Source: Streptomyces sp. SJL17-4
Lineage (GTDB): Bacteria; Actinomycetota; Actinomycetes; Streptomycetales; Streptomycetaceae
NCBI RefSeq assembly: GCF_036826855.1
Contig: NZ_CP104578.1
Coordinates: 3,596,001 to 3,660,000, forward strand
DNA length: 64,000 nucleotides
Direction: 5' to 3'
In this document: piece by piece, positions 22,845-41,379 of the stretch
How the letters are laid out: the number at the start of each line of letters is the position of its first letter
How positions within the stretch are numbered: the first letter of the stretch is position 1
Notes under the pieces: model-generated
The model's input: the letters and a program-made list of their open reading frames with translations, nothing else
What the model was told of the DNA's origin: nothing
Databases searched by the model: none
Made by a program: the position numbers and the translations under genes

Positions 22845-22889
22845 AGGCAAGATCGCATCGGCCCGGGGCCGGCCCCGGGCCGTTCCGGG

Positions 22890-23342
22890 TCAGTCCCGGG
22901 CCGTGCGGCGGGGTTCGGGGGCCTCTGCGGACCCCACCGCCTCCGTATCGTCGGGCTCCAGGAACTGGTTCACGACCTTGACGAAGACGCCCATGCGCTC
23001 GTCGGGGACCCCCAGCCAGCGCGCGAAGTCCTCCATGGACGGCTGCCAGTCGCTCGGCGGCAGCAGATCCGCCGCCATCGGGAGCTCCTCCGGGCTCACC
23101 CGGCCGGACCGGATCAGCATGTCGCGGACCGAGACCCCAAGGAGCGGGGCGATCCTGCGCATGGTCTCCAGGTCGGGCATGCTCTGCCGCTGCAGCAGGC
23201 GCGTCACGGCGGCCCGGTGCACCCCGGCCTCGTCCGCGATCCGGGACTTGCCGCCGCCGCGCGGGCTGTCGATGTCGTAGCCGCGCTGTCGCATCAGGCC
23301 TTCGACCCAGCCTGCGAACTCGTCCAGCCCACGAGTGGTCAT
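22890..23342 (-). CDS. XRE/HTH-type transcriptional regulator of the tail cluster
   Basis: A 150-residue protein with a single N-terminal helix-turn-helix (IADEAGVHRAAVTRLLQRQ, residues about 35-55) followed by LETMRRIAPLLGVSVRDML, the typical layout of phage-type repressors. The C-terminal half is acidic and lacks a LexA/CI-type self-cleavage Ser/Lys pair that I can recognise. It is divergent from the WhiB-like gene and sits at the edge of the phage-tail cluster, so it is the obvious candidate repressor or activator of that cluster. The target is inferred, not shown. MTTRGLDEF is taken as the start. Confidence 0.85.
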   Translation of the reverse strand: MTTRGLDEFAGWVEGLMRQRGYDIDSPRGGGKSRIADEAGVHRAAVTRLLQRQSMPDLETMRRIAPLLGVSVRDMLIRSGRVSPEELPMAADLLPPSDWQPSMEDFARWLGVPDERMGVFVKVVNQFLEPDDTEAVGSAEAPEPRRTARD

Positions 23343-23468
23343 GTACAGCTCCTCACTCCACTCCTCCAGGCGCCCAACTCTAGCGTGCTTGCGCGCACAG
23401 AATTACTTGGTTTCGGGTACGCAACGTGTCGAAACGATGAAGGCCACTCCAGGAGCGCCCAACAAAGT

Positions 23469-23490
23469 TGTTGCGCGCCCGCACGCAACA
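23469..23490. promoter_or_regulatory. Candidate operator ahead of the WhiB-like gene
   Basis: An inverted repeat TGTTGCG-N8-CGCAACA spans 23469-23490 in the XRE/WhiB divergent region. Fifteen of the 17 bases starting at GTTGCG match a site at 25856-25872 ahead of the tail operon (GTTGCGYGCSCGCACGC). A further half-site CGCAACGTG lies near 23417. A TTGTTG hexamer overlapping the left arm could be a -35 for the WhiB gene. Confidence 0.5.
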
Positions 23491-23552
23491 TGTAAGTCTG
23501 GCTCGCCGCCGCACTCGTCGGCCCCCCGAGCCCCAACGGCCCCATCGGTCCC

Positions 23553-23876
23553 ATGGAGTTCGGGGAGCCCCGGACCGTGGAGAACCTCTTGCTCCAGCCC
23601 GACCCCACCCCTTGGCAGGCCGCCGCCGCGTGCGCCGACCTCTCCCCGTCCGTCGTCTTCGCCCGCCGCGCCAAGGAGGCGGCCCCGGCGCTGCGCGCCT
23701 GCGCCGGCTGCGCCGTCCGCCGCGAGTGCGAGACGGCGGTGGCCCCTGCCGAGAGCTACTTCGACGGCGTCTGCGCGGGCCGCCTCTGGCGCAACGGCCG
23801 CCCGGCGGACGCGGCCCGCGTGGCGAAGGCGGTCGCCCTCACCCCGACGCTCACGCGGGGCGGACGCCGTGGCTGA
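23553..23876 (+). CDS. WhiB-like (Wbl) iron-sulfur transcriptional regulator, divergent
   Basis: A 107-residue protein with the four-cysteine pattern of Wbl proteins: C27, C50, C53 and C59 (C-x22-C-x2-C-x5-C), expected to bind a 4Fe-4S cluster. The usual G-[IV]-W-G-G turn is replaced by DGVCAGRLW (residues 71-79). A basic, Arg-rich C-terminus follows (LWRNGRP...GGRRG). Wbl proteins also occur on actinophages, where they help repress host functions. Its location next to the XRE gene suggests a role in controlling the tail genes. It overlaps the next gene by eight bases. Confidence 0.85.
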   Translation: MEFGEPRTVENLLLQPDPTPWQAAAACADLSPSVVFARRAKEAAPALRACAGCAVRRECETAVAPAESYFDGVCAGRLWRNGRPADAARVAKAVALTPTLTRGGRRG

Positions 23877-24612
23877 CCGCACGTCCCCCGCCGCCTCCGT
23901 CGAGCTCGTGCTGCGCGACATCGCGCTCTGGACCGCTTCCCTCGTACGCCAGTTCCCCGAGCTCGCCGAAGAGCTCGCGCCCGGCCGCCGCGGCCCCGCC
24001 GGGACCGCCCCCGCCCCCTCGCCCGCGGGCCGTGACGAGCAGATCCGCGAGGAGCGCCGCGAGGCGTTGCTCCTCCAGCAGCGGCACGGTCTCTCCGTCC
24101 CCGGCCACGGCGCCGCCCCGATCCGGCTGCACGTCTCCGACGCGATCCGCGACATCACCGACGGGGTGGTGGAGCTGGAGGAGGCCGTGTGCGCCCGGCT
24201 CGCGCTGCCCCGGCCGCCCCGCGCCGGGGTGATCGACCGGCTCCGCCGGATCGTGGGGCTGCTCGACACGATCGCCGCCGACCCCGACCTCGCCCGGCAC
24301 GTACGGGACGAGATCCGCCGGATGGCCCGGCGCTGCGCCCGGACGCTCGGCGACTCGGAGACGGTCGTACGGGTATCGGGCCGCTGTCCCTGGTGCGACT
24401 CGGTGTCGTTGCGGGCCTTCCCCGACCGGCGCGCGGTGCTCTGCGTGAACCCCGCCTGTGTGTGCGTGGACGAGGCGTGCGGCTGTCAGGACGACCCCGC
24501 CTACCGGCACGTGTGGCCGGAGCGGGAGTGGGCGGACCTCGCGGCCGCCTCCGGTTCCCGCACCGAGGAGATCGAGGCGGCGATGGACGACCCGAAGGAG
24601 ACCTCATGCTGA
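23869..24612 (+). CDS. Cys-rich protein of unknown function in the regulatory cassette
   Basis: A 247-residue protein not recognised as a named family. The first 170 residues are mostly helical (VELVLRDIALWTASLVRQF; AIRDITDGVVELEEAV; LDTIAADPDLARHVRDEIRR). A Cys-rich segment follows, with CPWC, then CVNPACVCVDEACGC, which looks like one or two zinc knuckles. The start is a GTG at 23869 overlapping the WhiB-like stop, and its stop overlaps the next gene's ATG. The order WhiB / Cys-rich / MerR suggests one regulatory transcript. Similar Cys-rich proteins occur in actinobacteriophage-derived regions, but this is only a resemblance. Confidence 0.65.
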   Translation: MADRTSPAASVELVLRDIALWTASLVRQFPELAEELAPGRRGPAGTAPAPSPAGRDEQIREERREALLLQQRHGLSVPGHGAAPIRLHVSDAIRDITDGVVELEEAVCARLALPRPPRAGVIDRLRRIVGLLDTIAADPDLARHVRDEIRRMARRCARTLGDSETVVRVSGRCPWCDSVSLRAFPDRRAVLCVNPACVCVDEACGCQDDPAYRHVWPEREWADLAAASGSRTEEIEAAMDDPKETSC

Positions 24613-24809
24613 GCTCGCCCGTGCTGCCGGCCCTGATCCCCGGACCGCTCGCCGCCGAGGAGGCCGGCGTCGCCCCCGCGACCATCCGCAAGTGGGTCCA
24701 GCTCGGCCATCTGCGGGCCGCGGGGAAGGCGGGCCGGGCGCAGCTCTTCCGCCTGGAGGACGTGTTCGCCGCCGAGCGCGTGGCCCGCCGCCGTCCCCGT
24801 ACCGCCTGA
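24606..24809 (+). CDS. Small MerR/excisionase-like helix-turn-helix protein
   Basis: A 67-residue DNA-binding protein. AAEEAGVAPATIRKWVQLGH forms a winged-helix HTH start and GRAQLFRLEDVFAAERVARR its wing and helix, as in MerR-like and excisionase-type proteins. It lacks an effector or dimerisation domain. The ATG at 24606 overlaps the preceding gene by seven bases. No integrase accompanies it, so a role as a transcription factor is more likely than as an excisionase. Confidence 0.75.
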   Translation: MLSSPVLPALIPGPLAAEEAGVAPATIRKWVQLGHLRAAGKAGRAQLFRLEDVFAAERVARRRPRTA

Positions 24810-24812
24810 CCG

Positions 24813-24839
24813 CCCCTCGTACCCCTCGTACCCCTCGTA
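24813..24839. repeat. Tandem 9-bp repeat
   Basis: Three perfect copies of CCCCTCGTA lie just after the MerR-like stop, followed by a TCTCGTACGAGA palindrome (24852-24863). Probably non-coding spacer. Confidence 0.8.
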
Positions 24840-24880
24840 CCCCCGCGCACCTCTCGTACGAGAAGCGCCCCCGTGCGAGA

Positions 24881-24913
24881 AGCACCCCCCGTCCGTGCAG
24901 GACGGGGGGCGCT
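24881..24913. terminator. Bidirectional terminator
   Basis: A 14-bp stem with one mismatch (24881-24894 with 24900-24913), followed by TTTCT on the plus strand. It sits between the convergent MerR-like and ATP-grasp genes and ends both transcripts. Confidence 0.8.
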
Positions 24914-24916
24914 TTC

Positions 24917-25744
24917 TCATGCCCTCAGGAAGCGGTCGAGCGAGGCGGTGAGGGCGGCGACGAAGCGGTCGCGGGTCTCCTCGGGGACACGGTCGAGGGA
25001 GAGATAGGGGTTGAGGTCCTCCAGCTCGACGAGGAGCAGCTCGCCGCCCGGGGCGCGGCAGGCGTCCACGCGCTGGATGCCGTGGTCGAGGGTGTTCCAG
25101 TCGACGAAGCGGCGGGCGAACGCGAGGTCGTCCTCGGTGGGCTCGTACGGCTCCAGGACCCAGCGGCGCCCGGGGTCGGGGGCGTGGAGGGCGTACTGGA
25201 AGAGGTCGTCGACGAAGTAGAAGGAGACCTCGTACCGGAAGTCGACGCGCGGCTGGACGAGGAGGTCGTCGTACGCGAGGCCGGCGAGCTCCTCGTACGC
25301 CAGGAAGCGCAGGCCTATCGAGTCGGCCCCGGCCTTGGGCTTGACCGCGTACTCGGCGGCTTCGGGGAGCCGGTGGAGGTCCTCGGGCCGGTCGACGGTG
25401 GGGATGACCGGGTACCCGGCGGCGGTCAGGTCGAGCAGGTACTGCTTGCCGGCCATGTCGCCGCGGCCGTGGAGCGGGTTGTAGACGCGGGTGCCCTCGG
25501 CCAGGGCGCGCTCGCGGAAGGCGTCGTACTCCTTCTGGTAGCCGATGACCGGGCCGCTGTTGCGTACGACGACGGCGTCGAAGCCGTTCATGAGGGCGGC
25601 GGCGTCGAGCGGGTGACAGAGCGCCAGGTCGAAGGAGGCGCGGAGCCGGGCGGTGAGGTGGATGTCCTCGTCGCAGTAGCGCCGTCCGCGGGCCGGGTAG
25701 GCGAGGTCGGTGACGTACAGCAGGCGGGGGCGGGCGGCGGGCAC
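24917..25744 (-). CDS. ATP-grasp domain protein
   Basis: A 275-residue protein with an ATP-grasp layout. An N-terminal alpha/beta part (FDAVVVRNSGPVIGY) is followed by the ATP-binding lysine region EYAVKPKAGADSIGL. The C-terminal metal-binding stretch is LLLVELEDLNPYLSLD, with the Glu-x-Asn arrangement. ATP-grasp enzymes ligate a carboxylate to an amine or thiol; the substrate here cannot be predicted. It is on the opposite strand to the tail genes, between the regulatory cassette and the tail operon, and may be a passenger or a host gene flanking the insertion. The start is a GTG at 25742-25744 with GAGGAG upstream. Confidence 0.7.
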   Translation of the reverse strand: MPAARPRLLYVTDLAYPARGRRYCDEDIHLTARLRASFDLALCHPLDAAALMNGFDAVVVRNSGPVIGYQKEYDAFRERALAEGTRVYNPLHGRGDMAGKQYLLDLTAAGYPVIPTVDRPEDLHRLPEAAEYAVKPKAGADSIGLRFLAYEELAGLAYDDLLVQPRVDFRYEVSFYFVDDLFQYALHAPDPGRRWVLEPYEPTEDDLAFARRFVDWNTLDHGIQRVDACRAPGGELLLVELEDLNPYLSLDRVPEETRDRFVAALTASLDRFLRA

Positions 25745-25855
25745 GGGGCGGCTCCTCGGTCGGTGGCCGCCAACCTATCGGCCGTCCGCGCGGGCCCGTA
25801 CGGAAGGACGTACGGAGGGGTGCGCGCACGCCGGGCCGTCGACCGCACCGAACTA

Positions 25856-25885
25856 GTTGCGTGCGCGCACGCTCTCTGTCACAGT
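25856..25885 (+). promoter_or_regulatory. Candidate tail-operon promoter with operator-like site
   Basis: TTGCGT (25857-25862) and CACAGT (25880-25885) are 17 bases apart. The -35 is embedded in GTTGCGTGCGCGCACGC (25856-25872), which matches the site near the WhiB-like gene at 15 of 17 bases. A second GTGCGCGCAC palindrome lies at 25820-25829. The remaining gap (25745-26027) shows no gene. The expected leader to the first tail gene is about 135 bases. Confidence 0.45.
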
Positions 25886-26027
25886 TGGTGCAGCGGCGGA
25901 GCTGCGCCCGAACAACGGGCGGCGGCTTCGCCGTTGGCCGTCCGGGCGCGCTGCCGCGCCCCGCCCCCTCCCGCCGGAGCGTCCCGGGCGGCCCCGTCCC
26001 GCACCCCTCACCCGAGGAGAAACCGTC

Positions 26028-26438
26028 ATGACCACTCCCCCGAGTGCGTTCCCGGACGTCGAGAAGCTGGTCGTCGACGTCCTCAAGGCCGATCCGGCGC
26101 TGGCCGGCGCGACCATCGCGGTCCACGCGCCGGCCGGCTTCGACGGCACCCAGCTCGCCGTCCTGGTGAACCGCCGCGGCGGTGCCTGGATCGGCGACCT
26201 GCACGTCGACATGCCGCTGATCGAGTTCGAGGTGTACGGGCCGACCAAGAACGCCGCCCACGTCCTCGCCAACGGCGCCCGCCGGGCCCTGCTCGCCACC
26301 ATCGGCAAGCAGATCGGCGCCGACAACGTCGTCCACGACGTCGAGGAGCAGGACGGGCCGCGCTGGCTGCCCGACTACCTCTACCGGGGCGCCAACCGCT
26401 ACCTGTGCGTCATCCGCCTCTCCCTGAGCGTCTTCTAG
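26028..26438 (+). CDS. Phage tail terminator/completion-like protein
   Basis: A 136-residue protein with the position and length of siphophage tail terminator proteins, immediately before the tail tube gene. It starts MTTPPSAFPDVEKLVVDVLK. The middle has an alpha/beta pattern (LHVDMPLIEFEVYGPTKNAA) seen in this fold. It would cap the tail tube after assembly. In a phage this surface meets the head connector, and no connector genes precede it here. The RBS is GAGGAGAAA, with ATG at 26028. Assignment rests on context and length more than on a diagnostic motif. Confidence 0.65.
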   Translation: MTTPPSAFPDVEKLVVDVLKADPALAGATIAVHAPAGFDGTQLAVLVNRRGGAWIGDLHVDMPLIEFEVYGPTKNAAHVLANGARRALLATIGKQIGADNVVHDVEEQDGPRWLPDYLYRGANRYLCVIRLSLSVF

Positions 26439-26539
26439 ACCTGAGACACGGCCCAGCCGCTCGCCGAGCGTGTTCCAGCCGCTCGCCGTGCCTCCCGGGC
26501 CCGCACCGAGCGGCCCCCGGGCGCTCGCCCCACAGACCA

Positions 26540-26561
26540 GGCCTCGCCGTCCGGCGGGGCC
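26540..26561 (+). terminator. Weak hairpin before the tail tube gene
   Basis: GGCCTCGCCG pairs with CGGCGGGGCC (one G-U pair) and is followed by TTT. It may be an attenuator that changes the relative amounts of terminator and tube transcript, or the upstream end of a separate transcript. Confidence 0.5.
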
Positions 26562-26620
26562 TTTGCCGTACCCGGACCGACGTCCGGGGCGGCAGCCCTC
26601 TCACCAAGGAGAAACCCACC

Positions 26621-27226
26621 ATGGCAGGAAACAACTCGTCCGAGATCCGCGTCGCCGGTACCGGCAAGCTCTACGTGGCCGATGTCGGCACCAACGCCCC
26701 CGCCTTCGGCACCGGCGAGCCCTCCGCCGACTGGACGGGCTGGACGGACCTCGGCTTCACCACCGGCGACGGTGTCACCTTCTCCAAGAAGGACAAGCTG
26801 GAGCCCATCGACTCGTGGCAGTCGGTCTCCCCGATCCACTACATCTACTCGGCCCGTGACCTCTCGCTGAAGTTCTCCATGCTCCAGTTCAACGAGAACA
26901 CGCTGCCGTTCTTCATGGGCGGCGGGAAGGTCGAGGCCGACCCGGCCGCGTCGACGGAGACCTTCAAGTACGAGATCGCCGAGCGTCCGTACGCGGACGC
27001 CCGCGCCCTCGGCCTGGAGTTCACCGACGTCAAGGCCGGCACCACCAACGCGGTCACGTACCGCTTCATCATCCCGCGCGGCCAGGTCACCGCGTCCGAC
27101 GACATCAAGCTGGCCCGCAAGGCGGCGTCCACCCTGGGCATCACCTTCAGCGCCATGTCGAGCGCGGACGGCAAGCCGCTGGCGACCTTCCTCATGAAGG
27201 ACAGCCAGTACGGCGCGGCGGTCTGA
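26621..27226 (+). CDS. Major tail tube protein
   Basis: A 201-residue protein matching the siphophage tail tube family in length and pattern. It has an N-terminal strand-rich part (IRVAGTGKLYVADVG; WTDLGFTTGDGVTFSKK), a SPIHYIYSARDLSLKFSMLQ loop region, and a C-terminal strand pair after RFIIPRGQVTAS. Many copies would stack as hexameric rings to form the tail tube. It has a good AAGGAGA RBS. It is followed by the tape-measure chaperones in the canonical order, which strengthens the call. Confidence 0.85.
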   Translation: MAGNNSSEIRVAGTGKLYVADVGTNAPAFGTGEPSADWTGWTDLGFTTGDGVTFSKKDKLEPIDSWQSVSPIHYIYSARDLSLKFSMLQFNENTLPFFMGGGKVEADPAASTETFKYEIAERPYADARALGLEFTDVKAGTTNAVTYRFIIPRGQVTASDDIKLARKAASTLGITFSAMSSADGKPLATFLMKDSQYGAAV

Positions 27227-27323
27227 TCCAGCTCCACCCGGGGCGGGACGGCCCACCGCCGTCCCGCCCCGCTCCCTCTCCGATCTCCCCTTCTTTCACC
27301 CGAAACAAGGAGTACGCGTCACC

Positions 27324-27614
27324 ATGGCCCGTTTCGACGTCAACGCCGCCCGCGCCCAGCGACAGGAGGCCCACGGCCGCGCCTGGTCCTTCGAGCTGGA
27401 CGGCGAGAGCTACACCCTTCCGACCGAACTGAGCCGTGCGACGGCCAAGGCGCTGCGCAAGCTCGACGACAACGACGTGGACGGGCTGCTCGGACTCCTC
27501 ATGGGTGAGGAGCAGTTCGCCCGCTTCGAGCAGCACGACATCACCATGCAGGACATCGCCGCCGTCCTGGAGGCCTACGGCAAGGAGACCGGGCTCGGCC
27601 TGGGGGAAGACTGA
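27324..27614 (+). CDS. Tail assembly chaperone (G-like protein)
   Basis: A 96-residue protein between the tail tube and the tape-measure genes, the standard place of lambda gpG-type chaperones. It contains the FELDGESYTLPTELSRATAK and LLGLLMGEEQFARFEQ segments typical of actinophage versions. Translation normally stops at the TGA at 27612-27614, but a slippery G-run just before allows a -1 shift into the downstream frame (see 27602-27648). It binds the tape measure protein during assembly. AAGGAG precedes the ATG. Confidence 0.85.
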   Translation: MARFDVNAARAQRQEAHGRAWSFELDGESYTLPTELSRATAKALRKLDDNDVDGLLGLLMGEEQFARFEQHDITMQDIAAVLEAYGKETGLGLGED

Positions 27615-27648
27615 GCCTCGTCGAGTTCGTCGACGAACACGCCGAGGC
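27602..27648 (+). promoter_or_regulatory. Programmed -1 frameshift site with downstream stem-loop
   Basis: A GGGGGAA run (27602-27608) immediately precedes the G-chaperone stop. Slipping back one base at the GGG codon enters the frame that continues to 28078. Six bases downstream a hairpin forms: GCCTCG (27615-27620) pairs with CGAGGC (27643-27648), enclosing the 14-bp palindrome GTTCGTCGACGAAC. That is the usual spacing of a stimulatory structure. Confidence 0.75.
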
Positions 27649-28078
27649 CCTTGAGGCGGACTTCCTCCGCTACTACTCCACCGATCTCCTCGACTGGCAC
27701 CGCGGCACGCTCTCCAGCCGCCGGGTCCTGGCGCTGATCAAGCATCTGCCGCGGGACAGCGCCGTCCAGCGGGAGATCCACGGCGAGTCCGCCGAGTGGT
27801 CGGTCAGCGATCATCTGCTGGCGGCCACGGTGGACCATCTGGCCGTCGCCAACTGGATGTTCATGTGCGTCAACAGCGGCGAGGACGGCGACCAGCCCGA
27901 TCCGCCGGCGCCCGTTCCCCGGCCGGCCGTCCCGGACCGGGACGCCGACGCCTCCGCCTCCGCCTTCGACAGGGTGGCCGGGGCAGGCGGCGCGGACACC
28001 GACGGACACGGGGGGAGCACGCCTGCCGAGGAGAGCGCGGCGGTGTCTCCCCACGCCCTCGCCCGTTTCTTCGGGTGA
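27605..28078 (+). CDS. T-extension of tail assembly chaperone GT (made by -1 frameshift)
   Basis: The frame from 27605 to 28078 has no ATG, GTG or TTG near its beginning but encodes a family-like segment (EALEADFLRYYSTDLLDWHRG; RRVLALIKHLPRDSAVQ). It resembles the second half of actinophage GT chaperones. Fused to 94 residues of the G protein it gives a GT protein of about 251 residues. A hydrophilic Pro/Asp/Ala-rich C-terminus follows. GT is made at a low ratio to G and recruits tube subunits to the tape measure. I place the slip at 27602-27605; the exact codon is inferred. Confidence 0.75.
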   Translation, partial: GRLSLVEFVDEHAEALEADFLRYYSTDLLDWHRGTLSSRRVLALIKHLPRDSAVQREIHGESAEWSVSDHLLAATVDHLAVANWMFMCVNSGEDGDQPDPPAPVPRPAVPDRDADASASAFDRVAGAGGADTDGHGGSTPAEESAAVSPHALARFFG

Positions 28079-28105
28079 CCCCGCGGCCCCCGGAGGCCGT
28101 TCCCG

Positions 28106-28870
28106 TCAGGGAGCGGATTCCGGGGGCGCTTCCCGTGCTCGCTCGGCGGAGAGCTCCTTCTCCAGGGCCTTGGCCCGCTCGGACAGGGAGCCCCGGCGCC
28201 CCTTCCCCGGACGCGTGTCGGCCTCGGTGGCCTCGTGCTCGCGCCGGTCGGCGTTCGGGCCGTTCTGTACGGGGACCCCGGCGAGCGGTGGCACGATCGG
28301 GCGTCCGCCCTTGCCGCGTACGACCTTACGCACCGGCTGGCCGCCTCTGCGGGTCCGGCGCTCCTGGGCGGTCGGCAGGACGTCGGGGTCCGCGCCCGGT
28401 TCGGGGCCCGAGGCGTGTTCGGGTTCCGGTTCGGGCCGCTGTTCGAACAGTTCGCGTTCCCTGCGGACGCGTTCCTCGGCCTCGACCACGACGGCGGGCG
28501 GTTCGAGGAGCCGGGCGAAGGGCAGTGCGATGACCCGGGCGCCGTCCTGTCCGCCGTCGATCCGCCGCTCGGGCCGGCGGATGCCCCGCGCGTCGCCCTG
28601 ACCCTGGGTGTAGGCGTCGGCGACGCGCTTCTCGTACTCCCGTCGTATGCGCGGGAGTTCGTCCGACACAGCCTCGGCCCAGCCCGCGGTGAACGCGGCC
28701 GTCTCCCGGCGGTCGACCTCGGCCCGGGGGATCACGACGAGGTCCTCGGTGGCGTATCCGTGGACCAGGACGAGCTCGGAGAGGCGTGCGAAGAGATGGG
28801 GCAGATCGGGGTGGGCCGCGAGCCAGTCGACGACTCGCTCCCGCCGGTTGGCACCCGGCTCCGTGTCCAT
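28106..28870 (-). CDS. Unknown protein with AGW motif, opposite strand
   Basis: A 254-residue hydrophilic protein not recognised. The first 110 residues look folded (VVDWLAAHPDLPHLFARLSE; YATEDLVVIPRAEVDRRE). They contain TAAFTAGWAEAVSDELPR, which resembles AYKAGWNDALVELRR in the small gene at 29171. The C-terminal half is low-complexity, with many Glu, Arg, Pro and Gly residues, and ends in a coiled-coil-like AKALEKELSAERA helix. It is the only minus-strand gene inside the tail module and is divergent from 29171, with an SOS box in the shared intergenic region. A regulatory or immunity role is possible but unproven. Confidence 0.6.
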   Translation of the reverse strand: MDTEPGANRRERVVDWLAAHPDLPHLFARLSELVLVHGYATEDLVVIPRAEVDRRETAAFTAGWAEAVSDELPRIRREYEKRVADAYTQGQGDARGIRRPERRIDGGQDGARVIALPFARLLEPPAVVVEAEERVRRERELFEQRPEPEPEHASGPEPGADPDVLPTAQERRTRRGGQPVRKVVRGKGGRPIVPPLAGVPVQNGPNADRREHEATEADTRPGKGRRGSLSERAKALEKELSAERAREAPPESAP

Positions 28871-29170
28871 GCGCAGTACTGCCTTCCAGCCCCCTGGGGT
28901 CCCCGCGCGCCCCTCGCGCCCCCGGCGCCCCGAGGTGGTCCGGTCCGGAGAGCGCCTTCCAGGTTACCCGGTCGAACGCAAGAGCCCTTCAGTCGCCAAC
29001 CCGTTCGGGAAACACGCAGGAAGACACGCCGTCAGATGTTTCCGGCTCGACAAACCTCGAACCCGTGTTCGACAATGCATCGCACACCAGTTCGATCCAG
29101 CCGGGGAGTCGACCACGGGCCCAGCCCATCACCGGCCCCACGACGGCAAGCAATCGGAAGGCAGGGCACC
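28871..29170. other. Divergent intergenic region containing an SOS box
   Basis: A 300-base gap between the minus-strand 28106 gene and the plus-strand 29171 gene. The main feature is a perfect LexA-type box at 29057-29072. TCGACA (29047-29052) and GACAAT (29071-29076) flank it as a possible plus-strand promoter with an 18-base spacer, which would give a leader of about 88 bases. No second gene is seen. Confidence 0.6.
29057..29072. promoter_or_regulatory. SOS (LexA) box
   Basis: TCGAACCCGTGTTCGA matches the TCGAAC-N4-GTTCGA LexA-binding consensus of mycobacteria, Bacillus and other Gram-positives at all 12 specified bases. It lies in the spacer of the candidate promoter for the 29171 gene, where bound LexA would block transcription. 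Confidence 0.8.
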
Positions 29171-29365
29171 ATGACGTCCCAGACCGGGGGAAGCCGCATA
29201 CCGAACACGCTCCACGATCGCGTCGACGCCTTGCTGCACCGCCCCGGTCCCCTCGACAAGCGCGCACTGCTCGCCACCCTCGACGCCGAGGTCGCGGCTC
29301 GCGAGATCCACGCGTACAAGGCCGGCTGGAACGACGCCCTCGTCGAACTCCGCCGCGCCTCGTAA
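29171..29365 (+). CDS. Small protein under a candidate SOS promoter
   Basis: A 64-residue protein, mostly helical (LHDRVDALLHRPGPLDKRAL; VAAREIHAYKAGWNDALVELR). No known domain. It shares the A-[FY]-x-AGW-x-[DE]-A pattern with the divergent 28106 product. A good terminator (29399-29433) follows at once, so it is probably transcribed alone from the SOS-box promoter. A role as an SOS-induced switch (anti-repressor or activator) is attractive because of its position, but it is an inference. GGAAGGCAGGG precedes the ATG. Confidence 0.65.
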   Translation: MTSQTGGSRIPNTLHDRVDALLHRPGPLDKRALLATLDAEVAAREIHAYKAGWNDALVELRRAS

Positions 29366-29398
29366 CCCCTTCCGTCCGCACACTCCGCTCCCCGCACG

Positions 29399-29433
29399 AA
29401 GGCCCCCGCCGGCCCCTCTCCGGCAGGGGCCTT
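29399..29433 (+). terminator. Terminator after the small SOS-linked gene
   Basis: Arms at 29399-29412 and 29420-29433 pair over the AAGGCCCC/GGGGCCTT and GCCGG/CCGGC segments with one bulge each. It isolates the short 29171 transcript from the coiled-coil and tape-measure genes. Confidence 0.75.
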
Positions 29434-29488
29434 CGCCGTGCGCGGGGTGTCCGGCGGAACGCGAAGCCCTCCGAGAAAGGGAGACAAC

Positions 29489-30256: not shown

Positions 30257-30306
30257 CAGCCGCTCGCCATGTCCTACCCGAATCCAGTCAGCAGAGGTGG
30301 ACGAGC

Positions 30307-32771: not shown

Positions 32772-32807
32772 CCGGGACCACCCGCCCGCGCCGCTCCTGG
32801 CAGCCCG

Positions 32808-32850
32808 TCCGAAGCGCGCGCCCCATCCGAAGCGTGCGCCCCATCCGAAG
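32808..32850 (+). repeat. 18-bp tandem repeat upstream of Dit gene
   Basis: Two full copies of TCCGAAGCGYGCGCCCCA and a partial third copy precede the distal tail gene. The last partial copy runs into TGAGGTGA, which serves as part of the ribosome-binding region. Confidence 0.8.
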
Positions 32851-32866
32851 TGAGGTGACGGCCCCC

Positions 32867-33790: not shown

Positions 33791-33893
33791 CCGGTGCCCG
33801 GTGACCCGCCGGCGGCCGGTCACCGCGCGGTGACCGGTCGCCGAACCGTTCCTTCCCCCGCCGTCACGACCCCCTTCTCGGAGAGGTGACCCC

Positions 33894-35084: not shown

Positions 35085-35118
35085 CCCCCACCCCCTCCCT
35101 TCCGATCGGAGAAACCCC

Positions 35119-36309
35119 ATGAACCTGCGCAGCAGCTGGGTCGCCGAGACCGGCCAGACCCGCGAGGACACCCGCCTCACCCAGACCGGCGTGACCACCC
35201 TGACCAACCCCGTCCAGGTCCGCTCCGGCGTCCTGCCCGGCTCGTACGAGGGCCTGCACCGGCTGGCCGGCTTCTGGACCTACGGCTCCTCGGCGATGAC
35301 CGCGACCGTCTCCGAGGGCCGGGCCGTCATCCAGGGCGAGATCTCCCAGGGCGTCTACCCGGTGACCCTGCCGACGTCCGAGGCGATCACCTTCGCGCCG
35401 GGCGACGCCCAGTACGGCCGGATCGACCTGCTCGTCGTGAAGGTCTACGACAACCTCTACGACTCCTCGAACCGCAACGAGGTGAAGATCGAGATCATCC
35501 AGGGCATCCCGGGGCAGACCCCGCAGGCCCCGGCGGTCCCGCCGCGCAGCCTCCCGCTGTACGAGGTCACCGTCCCGGCCGGCGTCAGCGCGGGCAACGG
35601 CGGCATCCCGTGGAACTCCGCGCTCAAGGACCTGCGCACCCCGGTCGTCTCGCTCGGCGGCATCCTCCCCGTCGAGGGCCCCGTCCTGCCGGGCGCCTAC
35701 CCGGGGCAGTACCAGGACGCCGGCGGCGCGCTCCAGCGCTGGGACGGCGGCGCCTGGGTGTCGTACCCGTCCGTGCTCGGCGGCATCGTCCCGAACTCCG
35801 CCTCCACCACCCCCGCCAGCTACACCGGCCAGTACCGCGACTCGGCGGACGGCCGGCTCCAGCGCTGGAACGGCTCCGTCTGGGTCCCGGTCGTGCCGGG
35901 CCCGTACTTCGTCGACAACGGCGACTACGGCGACACCACGTCCACCACCTACACCCCGACGCTCCAGGCCCGAGCCACCAACCCGCTCGCGCTCAGCTTC
36001 GTCGCCCCGCCGTCGAAGGCGATCGTCGTCAGCTTCGGCTGCCGCATGAAGTCGACCAGCCCCGACCACTACGCGTTCATGGCCCTCAAGCTCACCCAGG
36101 GCTCCACGGTCGTCAACGACCTCGACGACGAGTACGCGACGCTCGCCGCCAGCAAGCACCTGATCTCGGCCTCCACCACCCGCCGTCTGTCGGGACTCAC
36201 CCCGGGCGCCACCTACACCCTCACGGCGTACTTCCGCGTCGTCGCCGACACCCCCGCGCTCAAGGCGGGCTTCGACAACACCTTCATCAAGGTCGACCCA
36301 CTGCCGTAG
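35119..36309 (+). CDS. Receptor-binding/tail-tip protein 2
   Basis: A 396-residue paralog of the proteins at 33894 and 36342. The N-terminal domain begins MNLRSSWVAETGQTREDTRL. It contains AITFAPGDAQYGRIDLLVVK, which matches the same stretch in the other two. Two YPGQYQDAGGALQRWDGG-type repeats come next. The C-terminal domain is different: a beta-sandwich-like sequence with NGDYGDTTSTTYTPTLQA and RRLSGLTPGATYTLTAYFRV. The shared N-terminus with a swapped C-terminus suggests modular evolution of specificity. Confidence 0.75.
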   Translation: MNLRSSWVAETGQTREDTRLTQTGVTTLTNPVQVRSGVLPGSYEGLHRLAGFWTYGSSAMTATVSEGRAVIQGEISQGVYPVTLPTSEAITFAPGDAQYGRIDLLVVKVYDNLYDSSNRNEVKIEIIQGIPGQTPQAPAVPPRSLPLYEVTVPAGVSAGNGGIPWNSALKDLRTPVVSLGGILPVEGPVLPGAYPGQYQDAGGALQRWDGGAWVSYPSVLGGIVPNSASTTPASYTGQYRDSADGRLQRWNGSVWVPVVPGPYFVDNGDYGDTTSTTYTPTLQARATNPLALSFVAPPSKAIVVSFGCRMKSTSPDHYAFMALKLTQGSTVVNDLDDEYATLAASKHLISASTTRRLSGLTPGATYTLTAYFRVVADTPALKAGFDNTFIKVDPLP

Positions 36310-36341
36310 CCCGGCCCCCACCCACCCGACAGGAGAAAACC

Positions 36342-37481
36342 ATGGCACTCCGCAGCGGCTGGCTCCCGCCGACCGGGCAGACCCGTGTCACCACCCGTCT
36401 CACCGCGCTCGGCGCGACCACACCCGTCAACCCCGTCGTCTCGCGCTCCGGCATCCTGCCCGGCTCGGTCGACGGCAAGTACCGGGTCGGCGGTCTCTCG
36501 ATGAGCTCCAACGGCCCGATGACCGCGACCGTCCACCACGGGCGCGCGGTCGTCCAGGGAGCGCACAACCAGGGCGCCTACCCCATCACCCTCGACGAGG
36601 ACACCGTCGTCACCTTCGGCGACGGCGACCCGCTCAACCCCCGCCTCGACCTGGTCGTCCTGCGCGTGTACGACGACGAGTTCGACACCCTGACCAGGAA
36701 CGAAGCCGTCCTGGAGGTCGTACGGGGCGAACCGGGGGCGACGCCGGTCGCCCCCGCCACGCCCCCGCTGTCCCTCCCCCTCTTCCTGGTGAGGGTGAAG
36801 ACCGGCGCCTCCGCCGGCACCGGCGGCATCGACTGGGCGGGCGGCGCCCTCACCGACCTGCGGACCACCCTCGTCGGCGTCGGCGGCATCCTGCCCGTCT
36901 ACAACAACTCCGGTGTGCCGGGCTCCTACCCGGGTCAGTACCAGGACAACGACAACTCCCACTTCCTCCAGCGCTGGGACGGCACCTCCTGGGTCGCCTA
37001 CCCCAAGGAGATCGGCGGCATCGTCCCCACCGGGACGACCCTCACGACCGGGAGTTACGCCGGCCAGTTCCGGGACAACGCGGGCGTGCTCCAGCGCTGG
37101 AACGGCAGCGCCTGGGCGAACTACCAGCCGCCCGTGGAGGTGGAGACCCTCACGACGGGCGCCACCGCGCTCACCGGCTGGACCCTGATCGCGTTCAACG
37201 CCCGGCGCACCCGCGGCATCGCCACCGTCACCGCCACCGTCACCCGCAACGGCGCCGACATCTACGCCAACAGCGCGGGCAACATCACCGACGAACCGCT
37301 GCTCACGCTGCCCACCGGCTGGCGCTCCCCGCTCGACCTGGAGGCGGCCGCGGGCGACGGCTTCGCGTCCGGAGGCGCCTACTTCTCCCCCAACGGACAG
37401 GTGGTGCTGCGCACCTGGTCGCCGAACGGGGCCCTCGTGGCCGGCCGAAACGTCCGCGTCTCCGCCACCTACGTGCTGTGA
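36342..37481 (+). CDS. Receptor-binding/tail-tip protein 3
   Basis: A 379-residue third paralog, starting MALRSGWLPPTGQTRVTTRL and keeping the TFGDGDPLNPRLDLVVLRVY core and two YxGQY/F...LQRWDG/NG repeats. The C-terminal 115 residues are unrelated to those of genes 1 and 2 (GWTLIAFNARRTRGIATVTA ... RNVRVSATYVL), again strand-rich. AGGAGAAAA lies upstream of the ATG. The three genes are spaced by about 30 bases, each with its own ribosome-binding site. Confidence 0.75.
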   Translation: MALRSGWLPPTGQTRVTTRLTALGATTPVNPVVSRSGILPGSVDGKYRVGGLSMSSNGPMTATVHHGRAVVQGAHNQGAYPITLDEDTVVTFGDGDPLNPRLDLVVLRVYDDEFDTLTRNEAVLEVVRGEPGATPVAPATPPLSLPLFLVRVKTGASAGTGGIDWAGGALTDLRTTLVGVGGILPVYNNSGVPGSYPGQYQDNDNSHFLQRWDGTSWVAYPKEIGGIVPTGTTLTTGSYAGQFRDNAGVLQRWNGSAWANYQPPVEVETLTTGATALTGWTLIAFNARRTRGIATVTATVTRNGADIYANSAGNITDEPLLTLPTGWRSPLDLEAAAGDGFASGGAYFSPNGQVVLRTWSPNGALVAGRNVRVSATYVL

Positions 37482-37491
37482 GGTCCCCCCG

Positions 37492-38586
37492 ATGACACTC
37501 GACACGCCCTACCGGGCGATCTTCTGCGACCTGCTGACCGACACGACCCTGGACATCCTGCCGCTGCGGGACGTCCAGTGCGACGACTACATCGGCCGGG
37601 CCGGCTCCCTGTCCGGCACCATCCCCCTCCCGGACCGGACCATCGCCGAACGGGCCCACAAGGTCCGGGCGGGCCGCACCGCGGTCTACCTGGAGCGCGG
37701 CGGCGACCTGTGGTGGGGCGGCATCGTCTGGACGACCAACCTGCAGAGCAGCGACCGCGGGGTGATGACCCTGGGCATCCAGGCCGCCACCTTCGACTCG
37801 TACGCGACCCGGCGCCGGATCCGCAGGCCGATCACGTTCACCCAGCCGACCGACCAGCTCGACATCGCCCGCACGCTCTGGGCGGACCTCTCGGCCGGCC
37901 TGGGCAAGAGCGCCGTCGAAGCCGGCAAGGAGACCTCCGAGGTGCTGCGCACGGCGTCCTGGCGGCTCGGCGACGAGACCGTCTACCAGGAGGCGCTCGA
38001 CCAGCTCGGCGCCCAGGAGAACGGCTTCGAGTACCAGATCCTCGTCTACCGCGACCCGGTCGACGGGCGGCGGCTGCGCCAGCTGCGGCTCGGCTGGCCC
38101 AAGATCCGTACCGGCGCGACCGACATGGTCTTCGACCGGCCCGGCGCCATCCTCAGCTACTCGTTCCCCGACGACGCGACCCGCGGCGGCACCACCGCCC
38201 TGGCCCGCGGCGCCTCCACCAACAGCAACGCGGCCGCCGAGTCCCGGCCGACCGTCTCCGAGGAGATGCTCAGCCCCGACCTCGGCGAATGGCCGCGGGT
38301 CGACCTCTCGTCCGACCACAACGAGATCAGCGACGTCGCCACCCTCGACTCGCTGGCCACGGCGCAGCTCAAGGCGGCGAGCGGCTCCGTGCTGATCCCC
38401 GAGATCAGCATCCGCCTCGGCGGCATCGTCCCGCCCGCGCTCCTCGGCCGTACGGCCAGGATCCGGATCACCGACGAGTGGCACCCCCAGGGGCTCGACG
38501 CCCGCTACCGGATCGTCGGCGTCAAGTTCCGGCCGCCGGAGCGCGGCCGGCCCGACACCGCCGAGCTCAGCCTTGAGGAGGCCTGA
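37492..38586 (+). CDS. Tail hub / Gp37-like minor tail protein
   Basis: A 364-residue protein resembling the siphovirus Gp37-like (hub, gp27-type) minor tail proteins. It has an N-terminal strand-rich domain (LSGTIPLPDRTIAERAHKVR; GGDLWWGGIVWTTNLQSSDR), a central helical insert (QLDIARTLWADLSAGLGKSA) and a C-terminal OB-like region (LLGRTARIRITDEWHP; DARYRIVGVKF). It would form the central hub at the tail tip. In most siphophages the hub gene directly follows Dit; here three receptor-binding genes are inserted between them. The stop overlaps the next ATG. Confidence 0.8.
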   Translation: MTLDTPYRAIFCDLLTDTTLDILPLRDVQCDDYIGRAGSLSGTIPLPDRTIAERAHKVRAGRTAVYLERGGDLWWGGIVWTTNLQSSDRGVMTLGIQAATFDSYATRRRIRRPITFTQPTDQLDIARTLWADLSAGLGKSAVEAGKETSEVLRTASWRLGDETVYQEALDQLGAQENGFEYQILVYRDPVDGRRLRQLRLGWPKIRTGATDMVFDRPGAILSYSFPDDATRGGTTALARGASTNSNAAAESRPTVSEEMLSPDLGEWPRVDLSSDHNEISDVATLDSLATAQLKAASGSVLIPEISIRLGGIVPPALLGRTARIRITDEWHPQGLDARYRIVGVKFRPPERGRPDTAELSLEEA

Positions 38587-39227
38587 TGGCCCAGCTGCCC
38601 GAGGACATCATCGACCGGCTCATCCAGATGGAACGCCGGATCCAGGCCCTGTCCACCGCCGTGAACACCCGCCCGCCGATCACCGAGGTCGTCAACGGCT
38701 CGCTCACCGTGCGCCGCCAGCCCGACCCCGCCGACCCGACGACCTCCGTCACGCTCGCCCAGATCAACAGCAGCGGCCCCGGCGCCTCCAAGCCGGTCCT
38801 GCGGGTGAGCGACGCCTACGGCCACGAGATCCTCTCCGACGACATCCTCACCGGCGGCCTCGCCCGGCCCTGGCTGCCGATGCTCCCGCCGCAGGACTGG
38901 GCCTCCGCGAACTGGCCGGCCACCAGCGCCACCACCTGGACCACGATCGCCCACTCGCAGAACCCGATCTGGCAGCCCAAGCTGCGCCTGCGCATGGCCA
39001 CCCGGGTCTCCAGCGGGGCGACCGGCCAGATCCGGGTGATGGTCAACGGCGTCCAGTTCGGCACGACCGTCGCCGCCGGCACCATCTTCGACCACACCGA
39101 CCTGGCCACCGCGGACATGCAGGCCAACTTCGGCAAGGACCTGACGGTGGAGATCCACGGCATCGTCACCAGCGCCTCCGGCACGGTCTACGCCAAGCCG
39201 ATCCTGATGCACGGCCGCCAGACCTGA
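38586..39227 (+). CDS. Minor tail/tip protein with coiled-coil N-terminus
   Basis: A 213-residue protein starting MAQLPEDIIDRLIQMERRIQ, a short coiled coil of the sort that trimerises tail fibres. A linker follows, then a strand-rich C-terminal domain (WTTIAHSQNPIWQPKLRLRM; QIRVMVNGVQFGTTVAAGTI) similar to carbohydrate-binding sandwiches. It is translationally coupled to the hub gene. It could be a fourth, structurally distinct receptor-binding protein. Confidence 0.65.
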   Translation: MAQLPEDIIDRLIQMERRIQALSTAVNTRPPITEVVNGSLTVRRQPDPADPTTSVTLAQINSSGPGASKPVLRVSDAYGHEILSDDILTGGLARPWLPMLPPQDWASANWPATSATTWTTIAHSQNPIWQPKLRLRMATRVSSGATGQIRVMVNGVQFGTTVAAGTIFDHTDLATADMQANFGKDLTVEIHGIVTSASGTVYAKPILMHGRQT

Positions 39228-39260
39228 CCCACCCCACCCCCCTCCCCGAGAGGAGCCACC

Positions 39261-39725
39261 ATGATCCCCGACCCGCTCCACCCCTGGGGCCTGGCCATCG
39301 ACTACGCGGGCCGCGGCACCCTCACCGAGAACGGCCACACGATCGGCGTCCGCCTGTACGACAACACCCTCGGCGGCCCGCTGGAACGCGACCCGATGAC
39401 CGGCGAGTATCCGGCCGTGTACGTCACCGCGCAGATCGGCGAGACCGGCGAGAGCGGCGCCTTCCTGCGCGGCTACGGCGTCGTCACGGTCAACCCGGCG
39501 AACGGCAACCCGGCCGTGCCCGACCCGACCGCCGTCCAACGCGCCGTCGAGGCCTCGCTCGCCGACTTCGAGACCCGCCGCCTCGCCTACGCCGCACTGT
39601 GCGCCACCTGGACCCCGCCCGCCCCGGCACCGGACCCGGAACCCGAGCCGACTCCGGAACCGACTCCGGGCCCGACTCCGGAACCGACTCCGGAACCGAC
39701 ACCCGAGCCGACCCCGGAGCCGTAA
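39261..39725 (+). CDS. Unknown tail-associated protein with Pro-Thr-Glu repeat tail
   Basis: A 154-residue protein. The N-terminal 115 residues look folded (AIDYAGRGTLTENGHTIGVR; YPAVYVTAQIGETGESGAFL; ASLADFETRRLAYAALCATW). The last roughly 35 residues are Pro-rich with tandem E-P-T-P units, encoded by repeated CCGACTCCGGAA-type DNA. It is not recognised. The extended tail could be a spacer or a flexible attachment between tail tip and another part. Confidence 0.55.
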   Translation: MIPDPLHPWGLAIDYAGRGTLTENGHTIGVRLYDNTLGGPLERDPMTGEYPAVYVTAQIGETGESGAFLRGYGVVTVNPANGNPAVPDPTAVQRAVEASLADFETRRLAYAALCATWTPPAPAPDPEPEPTPEPTPGPTPEPTPEPTPEPTPEP

Positions 39726-39744
39726 CCACCGCGGCCGACTCCCG

Positions 39745-39842
39745 CACCACACCCCGTAGGCCCGCCCCACCCCGTACGTCCGCCCCACCCGTACGCCCCG
39801 CCCCACCCCGTATGCCCGCCCGCCCACCGCGCGGGCCTTTTT
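39745..39842 (+). terminator. GC-rich repeats and terminator before the lysis genes
   Basis: Imperfect repeats of GCCCCACCCCGTA-type sequence run from about 39745 to 39813. A GCCCGC/GCGGGC stem (39814-39819 with 39831-39836) followed by CTTTTTC makes an intrinsic-terminator-like element. It may limit readthrough from the tail genes into the lysis cassette. Confidence 0.65.
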
Positions 39843-39861
39843 CATGTCCGGAGGACACCAG

Positions 39862-40773
39862 ATGGCCACTCCCCTCCCCGCGGACCGGCTCCTCGCCGCA
39901 CTCCGCGCCGAAGGCGTCACCGTCGTCGAACACCCCGGCTGGCGCTCCCACAACCGCAACCACACCGGCGCCTGGGGCCCGGTCACCGGCGTGATGATCC
40001 ACCACACCGTCAGCTCCGGCACCAGGTCCACCGTCGAGATGTGCTTCAACGGCTACGAAGGCCTGCCCGGACCGCTCTGCCACGGCGTCATCGCCAAGGA
40101 CGGCACCGTCCACCTCGTTGCCGACGGACGCGCCAACCACGCCGGCGGCGGCGACCCGTCCGTCCTCCAGGCCGTGATCACCGAGACGTACGGGGACCGG
40201 CCGCCGGCCCCGCGCGAACACCAGGGCAGCCACAGCGCCGTCGACGGCAACTCCCGCTTCTACGGCTTCGAGTGCGTCAACCTCGGCAACGGCACCGATC
40301 CCTGGCCGGCCGCCCAGCTCGACGCCATCGAACGGGTCTCCGCCGCCCTCTGCCGGGCCCACGGCTGGGGCGCCAAGTCCGTCATCGGCCACCTGGAGTG
40401 GTCCGACTGGAAGAGCGACCCCAAGGGCTTCGGCATGCCGACCCTCCGGCAGCGCGTCCAGACCCGGCTCGCCAAGGCCCCCGCCAGGCCCACCCCCGGC
40501 AGCGGCAAGCCCGCCACCCCCCGCCTCCAGCCGTTCCCGGGCACCTCGTTCTTCCGCAAGGAGACGAGCTCCCCGGTCATCACGGCCATGGGACGCCGTC
40601 TCGTCGCCGAGGGCTGCGCCGCGTACACCGTCGGCCCCGGCCCCCGCTGGAGCGAGGCCGACCGGCTCAGCTACGCGAAGTGGCAGCGCAAGCTCGGCTT
40701 CCGCGGCTCCGACGCCGACGGCATCCCCGGCGCCGCGTCCTGGAACGCGCTGAAGGTCCCGTACACGAAGTAA
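39862..40773 (+). CDS. N-acetylmuramoyl-L-alanine amidase (endolysin)
   Basis: A 303-residue enzyme with an N-terminal amidase_2 (PGRP/T7 lysozyme-like) domain. Metal ligands are visible in GVMIHHTVSS (His), in the His of HLEWSDWK and in the zinc-region residues around SDWKSDPKG. A Pro-rich linker follows residue 205. The C-terminal 75 residues form a peptidoglycan-binding domain (RRLVAEGCAAYTVG; LSYAKWQRKLGFRGSDADGI). It cleaves the amide between MurNAc and the stem peptide. No signal peptide, so export needs the adjacent holin. The start is chosen at 39862 with GGAGG 7 nt upstream. Confidence 0.88.
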   Translation: MATPLPADRLLAALRAEGVTVVEHPGWRSHNRNHTGAWGPVTGVMIHHTVSSGTRSTVEMCFNGYEGLPGPLCHGVIAKDGTVHLVADGRANHAGGGDPSVLQAVITETYGDRPPAPREHQGSHSAVDGNSRFYGFECVNLGNGTDPWPAAQLDAIERVSAALCRAHGWGAKSVIGHLEWSDWKSDPKGFGMPTLRQRVQTRLAKAPARPTPGSGKPATPRLQPFPGTSFFRKETSSPVITAMGRRLVAEGCAAYTVGPGPRWSEADRLSYAKWQRKLGFRGSDADGIPGAASWNALKVPYTK

Positions 40774-40813
40774 CCACCGCACACGAGTAACCACCGCACC
40801 AGAGGAGACCCCG

Positions 40814-41053
40814 ATGTCCGATGCCGCCCAGCGCACGGCCCGTACCGTCCTCCAGACCGCCGTCGGCATCGCCGTCGTGCTCCCCGCGATCGTCGACGCC
40901 TCCGGCATCCCCGCGACCCTCCCCTGGGTCGCCGGCGCGCTGGCCGTCGCCGGCGGACTCACCCGGGTGATGGCACTGGACGCGGTGCAGAACCTGCTCC
41001 CGTCCTGGCTCCGCAGCACCCCGGCCCGGGGCGGTGCCGATGACCGAGCCTGA
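40814..41053 (+). CDS. Holin-like small membrane protein
   Basis: A 79-residue protein with two hydrophobic segments (TVLQTAVGIAVVLPAIVDA and LPWVAGALAVAGGLTRVMAL). A short positively charged N-terminus and a polar C-terminus flank them. It sits directly after the endolysin gene. This matches class II holins of actinophages. It overlaps the next gene by about 14 bases. Confidence 0.78.
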   Translation: MSDAAQRTARTVLQTAVGIAVVLPAIVDASGIPATLPWVAGALAVAGGLTRVMALDAVQNLLPSWLRSTPARGGADDRA

Positions 41054-41303
41054 TCCGAACGACCCCGTGGCCGTCGCCCTCGAACTGGAACGGCTCCGCG
41101 GCACCCTGGAGGCCGGCTTCGCCCGCGTCGACGGCGCGCTCGCGCTCCTCGTCCAGCGCAGCGACCAGACCGACCGGCAGCTCGCCGACCACGAGGCCCG
41201 CCTCGACGGTCTCGAACGCGCCCGCTGGCCGCTGACCAGCATCCTCGCGCTCGCCGCGAGCGCCGGAGCGCTCGTCGCGGTGTGGGAGCTGGCCGCCAGG
41301 TAA
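41040..41303 (+). CDS. Second small membrane protein of the lysis cassette
   Basis: An 87-residue protein with a coiled-coil N-terminal half (LELERLRGTLEAGFARVDGA; LADHEARLDGLERARW) and a single C-terminal hydrophobic segment (PLTSILALAASAGALVAVWE). It overlaps the holin-like gene. Proteins of this layout follow holins in actinophage lysis modules and may modulate the holin. ATG 41040 is chosen; a GTG at 41034 is possible. Confidence 0.7.
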   Translation: MTEPDPNDPVAVALELERLRGTLEAGFARVDGALALLVQRSDQTDRQLADHEARLDGLERARWPLTSILALAASAGALVAVWELAAR

Positions 41304-41323
41304 CCCCTTCGGGGGAGCGCACG

Positions 41324-41365: not shown

Positions 41366-41379
41366 TTCAAGCGACTCGC

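Follow-up and report, generated by a model that had tools for sequence, protein, structure and literature searches.

Phage tail and lysis genes between rpsL and rpoC of Streptomyces sp. SJL17-4: a probable SOS-induced, non-contractile tailocin

The genes rpsL and rpoC of Streptomyces sp. SJL17-4 (NZ_CP104578.1; chromosome of 8.54 Mb) are separated by a cluster of phage tail and lysis genes, which raises the question of what a phage tail could be for at such a place. A stretch of 64,000 nucleotides around this locus, called the window below, was analysed together with related loci from other genomes. The cluster probably (at about three chances in four) represents a family of SOS-induced, non-contractile (F-type) tailocins domesticated from the tail-lysis module of a siphophage resembling the Streptomyces phage Raleigh (NC_047795). 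It fits this class because it combines a tail without a recognisable head, its own lysis genes, predicted LexA control, long-term conservation and variable receptor-binding heads; membership is argued here from anatomy and regulation as read from the genes, and particle formation, lytic release and killing would be the expected outcome. The initial annotation of the window had already proposed a tailocin, and that proposal gains from the absence of the four head families searched, from intact genes under selection and from the LexA control added here, as such control fits tailocins.

Tail and lysis genes without a recognisable head

Genes in the rpsL-rpoC interval were called by guanine-plus-cytosine (GC) frame analysis and by Pfam and PHROGs family searches of the interval proteins. 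The flanks, tail genes and lysis genes are as follows.

22204-22575, minus strand: rpsL, one flank of the tail cluster (Pfam)
26028-26438, plus strand: tail terminator (phrog_123, 8.3e-19)
26621-27226, plus strand: major tail tube protein (PF25681, 1.5e-56)
27324-27614, plus strand: tail assembly chaperone G (phrog_10551, 1.1e-27)
27602-27608, plus strand: -1 frameshift slippery site G GGG GAA
27602-28078, plus strand: chaperone T frame, reached by the -1 frameshift (phrog_3656, 4.3e-29; frame start set by hand)
30307-31521, plus strand: tape measure 1, 404 residues (phrog_3981, 1.6e-27)
31518-32771, plus strand: tape measure 2, 417 residues (phrog_3981, 1.2e-24)
32867-33790, plus strand: distal tail protein Dit (PF22768, 2.4e-09; phrog_5577, 1.6e-80)
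33894-35084, plus strand: probable receptor-binding paralog 1 (phrog_3398, 1.6e-54; predicted C1q/TNF-like C-terminal domain)
35119-36309, plus strand: probable receptor-binding paralog 2 (phrog_3398, 1e-61)
36342-37481, plus strand: probable receptor-binding paralog 3 (phrog_3398, 1e-66; phrog_9468, 1.1e-24)
37492-38586, plus strand: tail hub or minor tail protein (phrog_1885, 4e-55; 47% identical to Raleigh gp19)
38586-39227, plus strand: minor tail protein candidate (phrog_9849, of unknown function, 4e-37; weakly like Raleigh gp20)
39261-39725, plus strand: protein with a proline-rich end (from sequence and position; no phrog)
39862-40773, plus strand: endolysin, N-acetylmuramoyl-L-alanine amidase (PF01510, Amidase_2, 5.6e-22; phrog_880, 2.3e-75)
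40814-41053, plus strand: small hydrophobic protein, holin candidate (phrog_4316, of unknown function, 5.5e-25; 66% identical to Raleigh gp23)
41040-41303, plus strand: small protein with a hydrophobic end, holin or antiholin candidate (phrog_5225, of unknown function, 2.3e-27; 50% identical to Raleigh gp24)
41380-45294, minus strand: rpoC, the other flank of the tail cluster (Pfam)

The set expected of a siphophage tail is thus complete, with terminator, tube, chaperones, tape measure, Dit, hub and putative receptor-binding proteins, and the cluster brings its own lysis genes, the amidase endolysin and two small hydrophobic proteins, whose membrane nature was judged by eye and for which a holin function seems likely. 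Every tail and lysis gene lies on the plus strand, opposite to rpsL and rpoC, just as the initial annotation had stated, and its list of regulators, tail and lysis genes was recovered almost item by item in the Pfam and PHROGs matches. Its description did not include a small open reading frame (ORF) at 29171-29365, a hypervariable gene at 29489-30256, the slippery site and a LexA box at 29057-29072. The two tape measures are paralogs (26% identical over 301 columns) encoded by genes that overlap by 4 bases. Sequence searches of the PDB with the hub and with the receptor-binding profile gave no match. The GC content is 71.7% in the interval and 68.9% over the whole window.

Relatives came from 150 sampled genomes of the genus and from a scan of named genomes with chaperone G as the single query, of which the best 80 of 118 confirmed places were used; the two sets overlap in at least seven loci. 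The slippery site is identical in the window and in all 24 loci with a G match. A full-length tail tube (identity of at least 44%) was present in 25 of the 150 genomes, the window's own included.

The initial annotation, which had seen no capsid, portal or terminase gene, had suggested looking for them in the rest of the genome, where they would speak against a tailocin. Profiles for HK97 capsid (PF05065), terminase ATPase (PF03354), SPP1 portal (PF05133) and phage portal (PF04860) were run over 27 genomes, and none of these four families matched anywhere in the SJL17-4 genome. The scan of the interval proteins gave no match to a capsid, portal or large-terminase family, apart from the label of phrog_3398 and weak small-subunit matches taken up below. 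Fourteen of the 25 genomes with a full-length tube, SJL17-4 among them, lack a match to any of the four families. The other 11 match some head family elsewhere: in six the nearest head match on the cluster contig is more than 500 kb away (closest in G108, about 536 kb), and in five the head matches lie on other contigs. As a positive control, divergent tube homologs in G016 and in a second copy in G041 have a capsid gene 2.5 and 3.4 kb away, with portal and terminase beside it. The terminase, portal and capsid proteins of Raleigh, used as queries, found no match in the 80 related loci at E 1e-3. No integrase family was seen among the interval proteins scanned, apart from a weak excisionase match of a MerR-like helix-turn-helix (HTH) protein, and the two outer spacers have no identical stretch of at least 10 bases in common, in direct or inverted orientation, in a comparison that sought an integration site only lightly.

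Predicted control by DNA damage

What, then, would switch such a cluster on? The elements that bear on this question lie upstream of the tape measures.

28106-28870, minus strand: 254-residue gene without a family match, divergent from the SOS promoter (ratio of nonsynonymous to synonymous substitution, dN/dS, 0.20-0.30)
29047-29076, plus strand: sigma-70-like promoter, overlapping the LexA box
29057-29072, strand not assigned: predicted LexA/SOS box TCGAACCCGTGTTCGA, a palindrome (exact core match)
29171-29365, plus strand: small ORF of 64 residues that follows the SOS promoter directly (homologs detected in 48 of the 80 loci)

The promoter is the only promoter-like match in 22560-41400, where shuffled sequences gave a mean of 0.4, and the box fills most of its spacer and overlaps the second hexamer by two bases. 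TCGAACCCGTGTTCGA fits the S. venezuelae LexA consensus tCGAAC-N4-GNNCGa (PMC9380542). The pattern CGAACN4GTTCG occurs at eight places in the genome, 29057-29072 being one of them, versus four for the backward control pattern. Across the 80 loci, 22 of the 48 regions that lie upstream of the small ORF contain the core GAACN4GTTC (1.39 per kb), as do 5 of the 68 xre-whiB regions (0.30 per kb), and the remaining 1.457 Mb has 21 copies (0.014 per kb), an enrichment of about 100-fold at the promoter place; the 330-bp promoter region behind these counts was chosen after the box had been seen in the first sample, and gene starts were taken from best hits. The occurrence of the box by itself is weak evidence and its position in relatives is strong evidence, and together they predict a LexA operator at the cluster. 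The box in the promoter of this cluster is new in this analysis.

Among the LexA targets described for S. venezuelae (PMC9380542) is a 'predicted prophage cluster' that mitomycin C induces 190- to 526-fold. Both published SOS-box 14-mers occur in L032, one of our loci, and neither is present in the 152 other sequences compared, which suggests that L032 is the S. venezuelae ortholog. One is located in the gap that separates the small ORF from the 28106-28870 ortholog, and the second towards the end of tape measure 2, immediately ahead of Dit; the exact palindrome of L032 lies 87 bp from the published box. Control of the cluster through bldA was also considered and rejected, as none of the 24 listed reading frames contains a TTA codon. 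A short motif common to the small ORF and 28106-28870 was seen in a rough alignment.

Conservation, distribution and variable parts

Is the cluster maintained? Most of its genes are near full length in most loci, with exceptions that include the relic L057, the partial locus L039 and a broken first tape measure in L037. Comparison of the window with its four nearest loci gave dN/dS below 1 for all 21 genes and pairs tested, in a simple NG86 estimate without a significance test that excludes chaperone T, the small ORF and 29489-30256. Values were low for xre, the MerR-like gene, chaperone G and the last small protein, and highest for the receptor-binding and minor tail genes. In a Mantel analysis of the 42 of 80 loci in which the matches to fusA, tube, G and Dit each covered 90% or more, the tube distance tracked that of fusA (r 0.69; none of 2000 permutations as high), and Dit (r 0.59) and G (r 0.57) did likewise, so cluster and neighbourhood have for the most part diverged together. 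These comparisons argue that it is maintained by selection.

Tail tube matches at E <= 1e-10 were found in 31 of the 150 genus members, SJL17-4 included. The 25 full-length tubes span 44-100% identity; G008, matched in two pieces, was not counted. The cysteine-rich (Cys-rich) regulator occurs in 26 of the 150 genomes, 24 of which are among these 25. In the named-genome set, 78 of the best 80 of 118 loci are titled Streptomyces, two tape measures at distinct places are present in 61 of the 80 and only one in 15, and rpsL or rpoC is included in 55 of the 64 full-length loci. Both rpsL and rpoC were found in 148 of the 150 genomes and on one contig in 139, where the interval between them is below 2 kb in 80 and above 16 kb in 12. 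Ten of these 12 carry the cluster, G127 does not, and in G012 a megabase rearrangement splits it; rpsL and rpoC are there 3.8 Mb apart, the cluster genes lie at three distant places (L039, L164-L167) and the Cys-rich gene matches in two parts, so that a large rearrangement appears to have broken inside the cluster. In G114, G116 and G119 it sits on the rpoC contig, in opposite orientation in G114 and G119. The claim that the tailocin is fixed between two essential operons therefore holds in part: ten of the 139 genomes have the cluster there, three more have it on the rpoC contig, and in further genomes it lies elsewhere or only relics are left.

Clusters elsewhere in the genome (L048, L050, L052-L055) mostly retain regulators and lysis genes around a different middle. 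Those outside rpsL-rpoC have no flank common to all, and some pairs share flanks, best L129 and L140. A long rpsL-rpoC interval does not by itself indicate a tail cluster, since nine other genomes (L153-L160, L163) have intervals of 6-17 kb in which no cluster gene was matched at E 1e-3; the space between rpsL and rpoC seems to be a hot spot for insertions in general in Streptomyces. In G011 and G018, relics at the same site have lost the tail but still carry regulators and small end genes; the G011 regulator sits in such a relic, apart from the tube, and the G008 copy is truncated.

Two parts of the cluster vary between loci. The first is the receptor-binding array, with one to three copies per locus (lower bounds where a locus ends early) and variable heads. 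Position, variability and predicted fold suggest a receptor-binding role for the three paralogs. In the structure model of 33894-35084 (predicted template modelling score, pTM, 0.48; predicted local distance difference test, pLDDT, below 50 for residues 8-38) only the C-terminal domain was used; its relatives include C1q and TNF domains, a shared fold that alone is no proof of function. The second is the following gene.

29489-30256, plus strand: hypervariable coiled-coil protein with a central hydrophobic stretch (from comparison of related loci)

An ORF with a fast-changing product directly precedes the tape measures in 60 of the 76 loci inspected. The 61 products, the window's included, contain one homolog group of 33 and a group of six to which the window belongs, the ORFs having been chosen mechanically and a few being clearly overlong. 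Alignment of nine relatives with the window's protein gave identities of 10-27%. The place, coiled coils and often a hydrophobic stretch recur, and family matches are weak and without clear meaning, including the hemolysin-labelled phrog_1193. The protein may be a third tape-measure part or cargo.

The remaining genes of the interval are regulators and one probable passenger.

22890-23342, minus strand: XRE/HTH repressor-like regulator, 150 residues (PF01381, 1.1e-05; phrog_3949 repressor, 2.2e-11; homolog in 69 of 80 loci)
23553-23876, plus strand: WhiB-like regulator, 107 residues (PF02467, 1.6e-06; homolog in 56 of 80 loci)
23869-24612, plus strand: Cys-rich protein, 247 residues, a marker of the cluster (no curated family; homolog in 70 of 80 loci and 26 of 150 genomes)
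24606-24809, plus strand: MerR/excisionase-like HTH protein, 67 residues (phrog_2474, 6.4e-13; homolog in 71 of 80 loci)
24917-25744, minus strand: ATP-grasp-like enzyme, probable passenger, not core (weak NF058666, D-cycloserine synthetase DcsG, 4.6e-11)

Only xre, the ATP-grasp-like gene and 28106-28870 lie on the minus strand within the interval. The ATP-grasp-like gene was found in 3 of 32 loci of the first sample and in 20 of the 80 named loci, the closer relatives, and is a passenger or perhaps a self-protection enzyme. The Cys-rich genes of G003, G032, G068, G119 and G125 (5 of 26 matches) contain one in-frame TGA, which may reflect decay, sequencing error or a split gene. Outside the interval, a 718-residue PIG-L de-N-acetylase-like ORF lies at 15974-18130 on the plus strand, near minus-strand ribosomal genes.

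Competing readings and known systems

If the cluster is an F-type tailocin, DNA damage would lift LexA from the box at the promoter near 29060, and the XRE, WhiB, Cys-rich and MerR-like regulators may act with LexA in some manner. Tails would then assemble on two short tape measures and be capped by the terminator, with one to three receptor-binding proteins bearing variable C1q/TNF-like heads at the tip. The endolysin and the small hydrophobic proteins would burst the producing hyphal compartment, and the freed tails would bind related actinomycetes, which they would kill most likely by opening the membrane.

Several observations weigh against this account. The head search covered four Pfam families, would miss divergent head proteins, and included several relatives that are fragmented drafts. 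In PHROGs, phrog_3398 is classed as 'head and packaging: virion structural protein'; the paralogs are read as tail proteins because the gene of their Raleigh counterpart, gp18, sits between Dit and hub. The MerR-like protein weakly matches terminase-small-subunit profiles (0.0014, 0.018) as well as an excisionase profile (0.0032), which we take as HTH similarity. Values of dN/dS approach 1 in a few genes (0.93 and 0.96 for 39261-39725). One-mismatch LexA-like sites number 6 in the window versus 4.4 expected, about what chance gives; the exact palindrome is missing from 26 of the 48 promoter regions of relatives; and in L032 the distances from SOS box to gene starts, measured by hand, are about 105-118 and 200 bp versus the published -123 and -182. 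Within the 20 kb retrieved, lysis genes go unmatched in three of the 25 genomes (L045, L049, L051), and the regulators go unmatched too in L045 and L049. The cluster is also missing from most of the 150 genomes, is a relic in G008, G011 and G018 and is split in G012, which shows it to be dispensable and subject to decay.

A bolder version of the tailocin would have the hypervariable protein, with its membrane-like stretch, ride inside the tail and be delivered as the lethal pore of an SOS-fired, sheath-less weapon; we consider this unlikely, but if it were true, both the aim (the receptor-binding heads) and the warhead would differ between strains.

The same gene could be the cargo of an injection or self-lysis device serving development or stress, a sheath-less counterpart of the contractile injection systems (CIS). 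Streptomyces CIS do mediate cell death (PMC10066040), and the fast-changing gene, often with a hydrophobic stretch, sits right before the tape measures in most of the loci inspected. However, the interval proteins scanned include no sheath or contractile-baseplate family, the hypervariable protein resembles a coiled coil and has uninformative matches, and one to three receptor-binding copies with variable heads point outward, to varied targets, which leaves the device quite improbable.

We give similarly low credence to a decaying prophage remnant in which tail and lysis genes were retained by chance and have no function. Descent from a phage tail module is clear, and the relics in G011 and G018 and the truncated G008 copy are what decay would leave. 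The initial annotation had itself named a broken remnant with inactivated genes as the finding that would undo its proposal; what is seen instead is a similar head-less set in many species, with near full-length genes, dN/dS below 1, a slippery site kept in 24 of 24 loci, LexA boxes conserved in position and, in S. venezuelae, 190- to 526-fold induction (PMC9380542).

That the tails join heads of a satellite, a gene transfer agent or a phage, and so serve DNA transfer rather than killing, is very unlikely. The terminator, the end at which a head is joined, is retained, and 11 of the 25 cluster genomes hold some head family elsewhere; yet SJL17-4 and 13 other cluster genomes match none of the four families, and sheath-less tailocins would presumably also need a terminator for tail closure. 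An intact prophage was rejected, as head, packaging and integration genes were not found with the tail in the interval scan, nor the four head families genome-wide, and a contractile injection system or R-type tailocin was rejected as well, the interval scan having shown no sheath family and the genome's one Baseplate_J match lying at 122919, 3.5 Mb away. That match (G000:C1:122919-123446, L001) lies close to the end of the chromosome and suggests a contractile system distinct from this cluster.

Some of the LexA targets with the strongest induction in S. venezuelae appear in PMC9380542 only under the name of a predicted prophage cluster; a tailocin would give them a testable meaning. Streptomyces are studied mainly as makers of small-molecule antibiotics. 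If roughly one sampled species in six (25 of 150) carries a conserved protein weapon that is released by lysis and controlled by DNA damage, their life in soil would include a second way of killing, paid for by the bursting of cells.

F-pyocins and Listeria monocins are SOS-linked too, and combine regulators and lysis genes with the module for a flexible siphophage tail that has no head. Compared with these, the Streptomyces cluster is set apart by its Raleigh-like phage ancestry, actinomycete host, WhiB-like and Cys-rich regulators, two short tape measures and one to three receptor-binding paralogs. F-type tailocins are non-contractile and flexible (PMC8910223). The Streptomyces CIS/SLP are likewise phage-tail-derived devices (PMC8910223), but contractile, whereas no sheath family was found in the cluster interval. 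In the literature covered, which leaves aside most subscription journals and bioRxiv preprints, contractile Streptomyces systems and the LexA paper were found and the cluster as a tailocin was not; for the S. venezuelae ortholog, the passages of PMC9380542 covered here list LexA target genes only and do not state its head-less nature, family or tailocin role. Phage Raleigh shares with the cluster the order of Dit, receptor-binding protein, hub, endolysin and two small genes, with 47% identity for the hub and 66% and 50% for the small genes. It differs in its head, terminase and integrase genes, in a single tape measure of 802 residues, and in having one receptor-binding-type protein together with an extra tail fibre gene.

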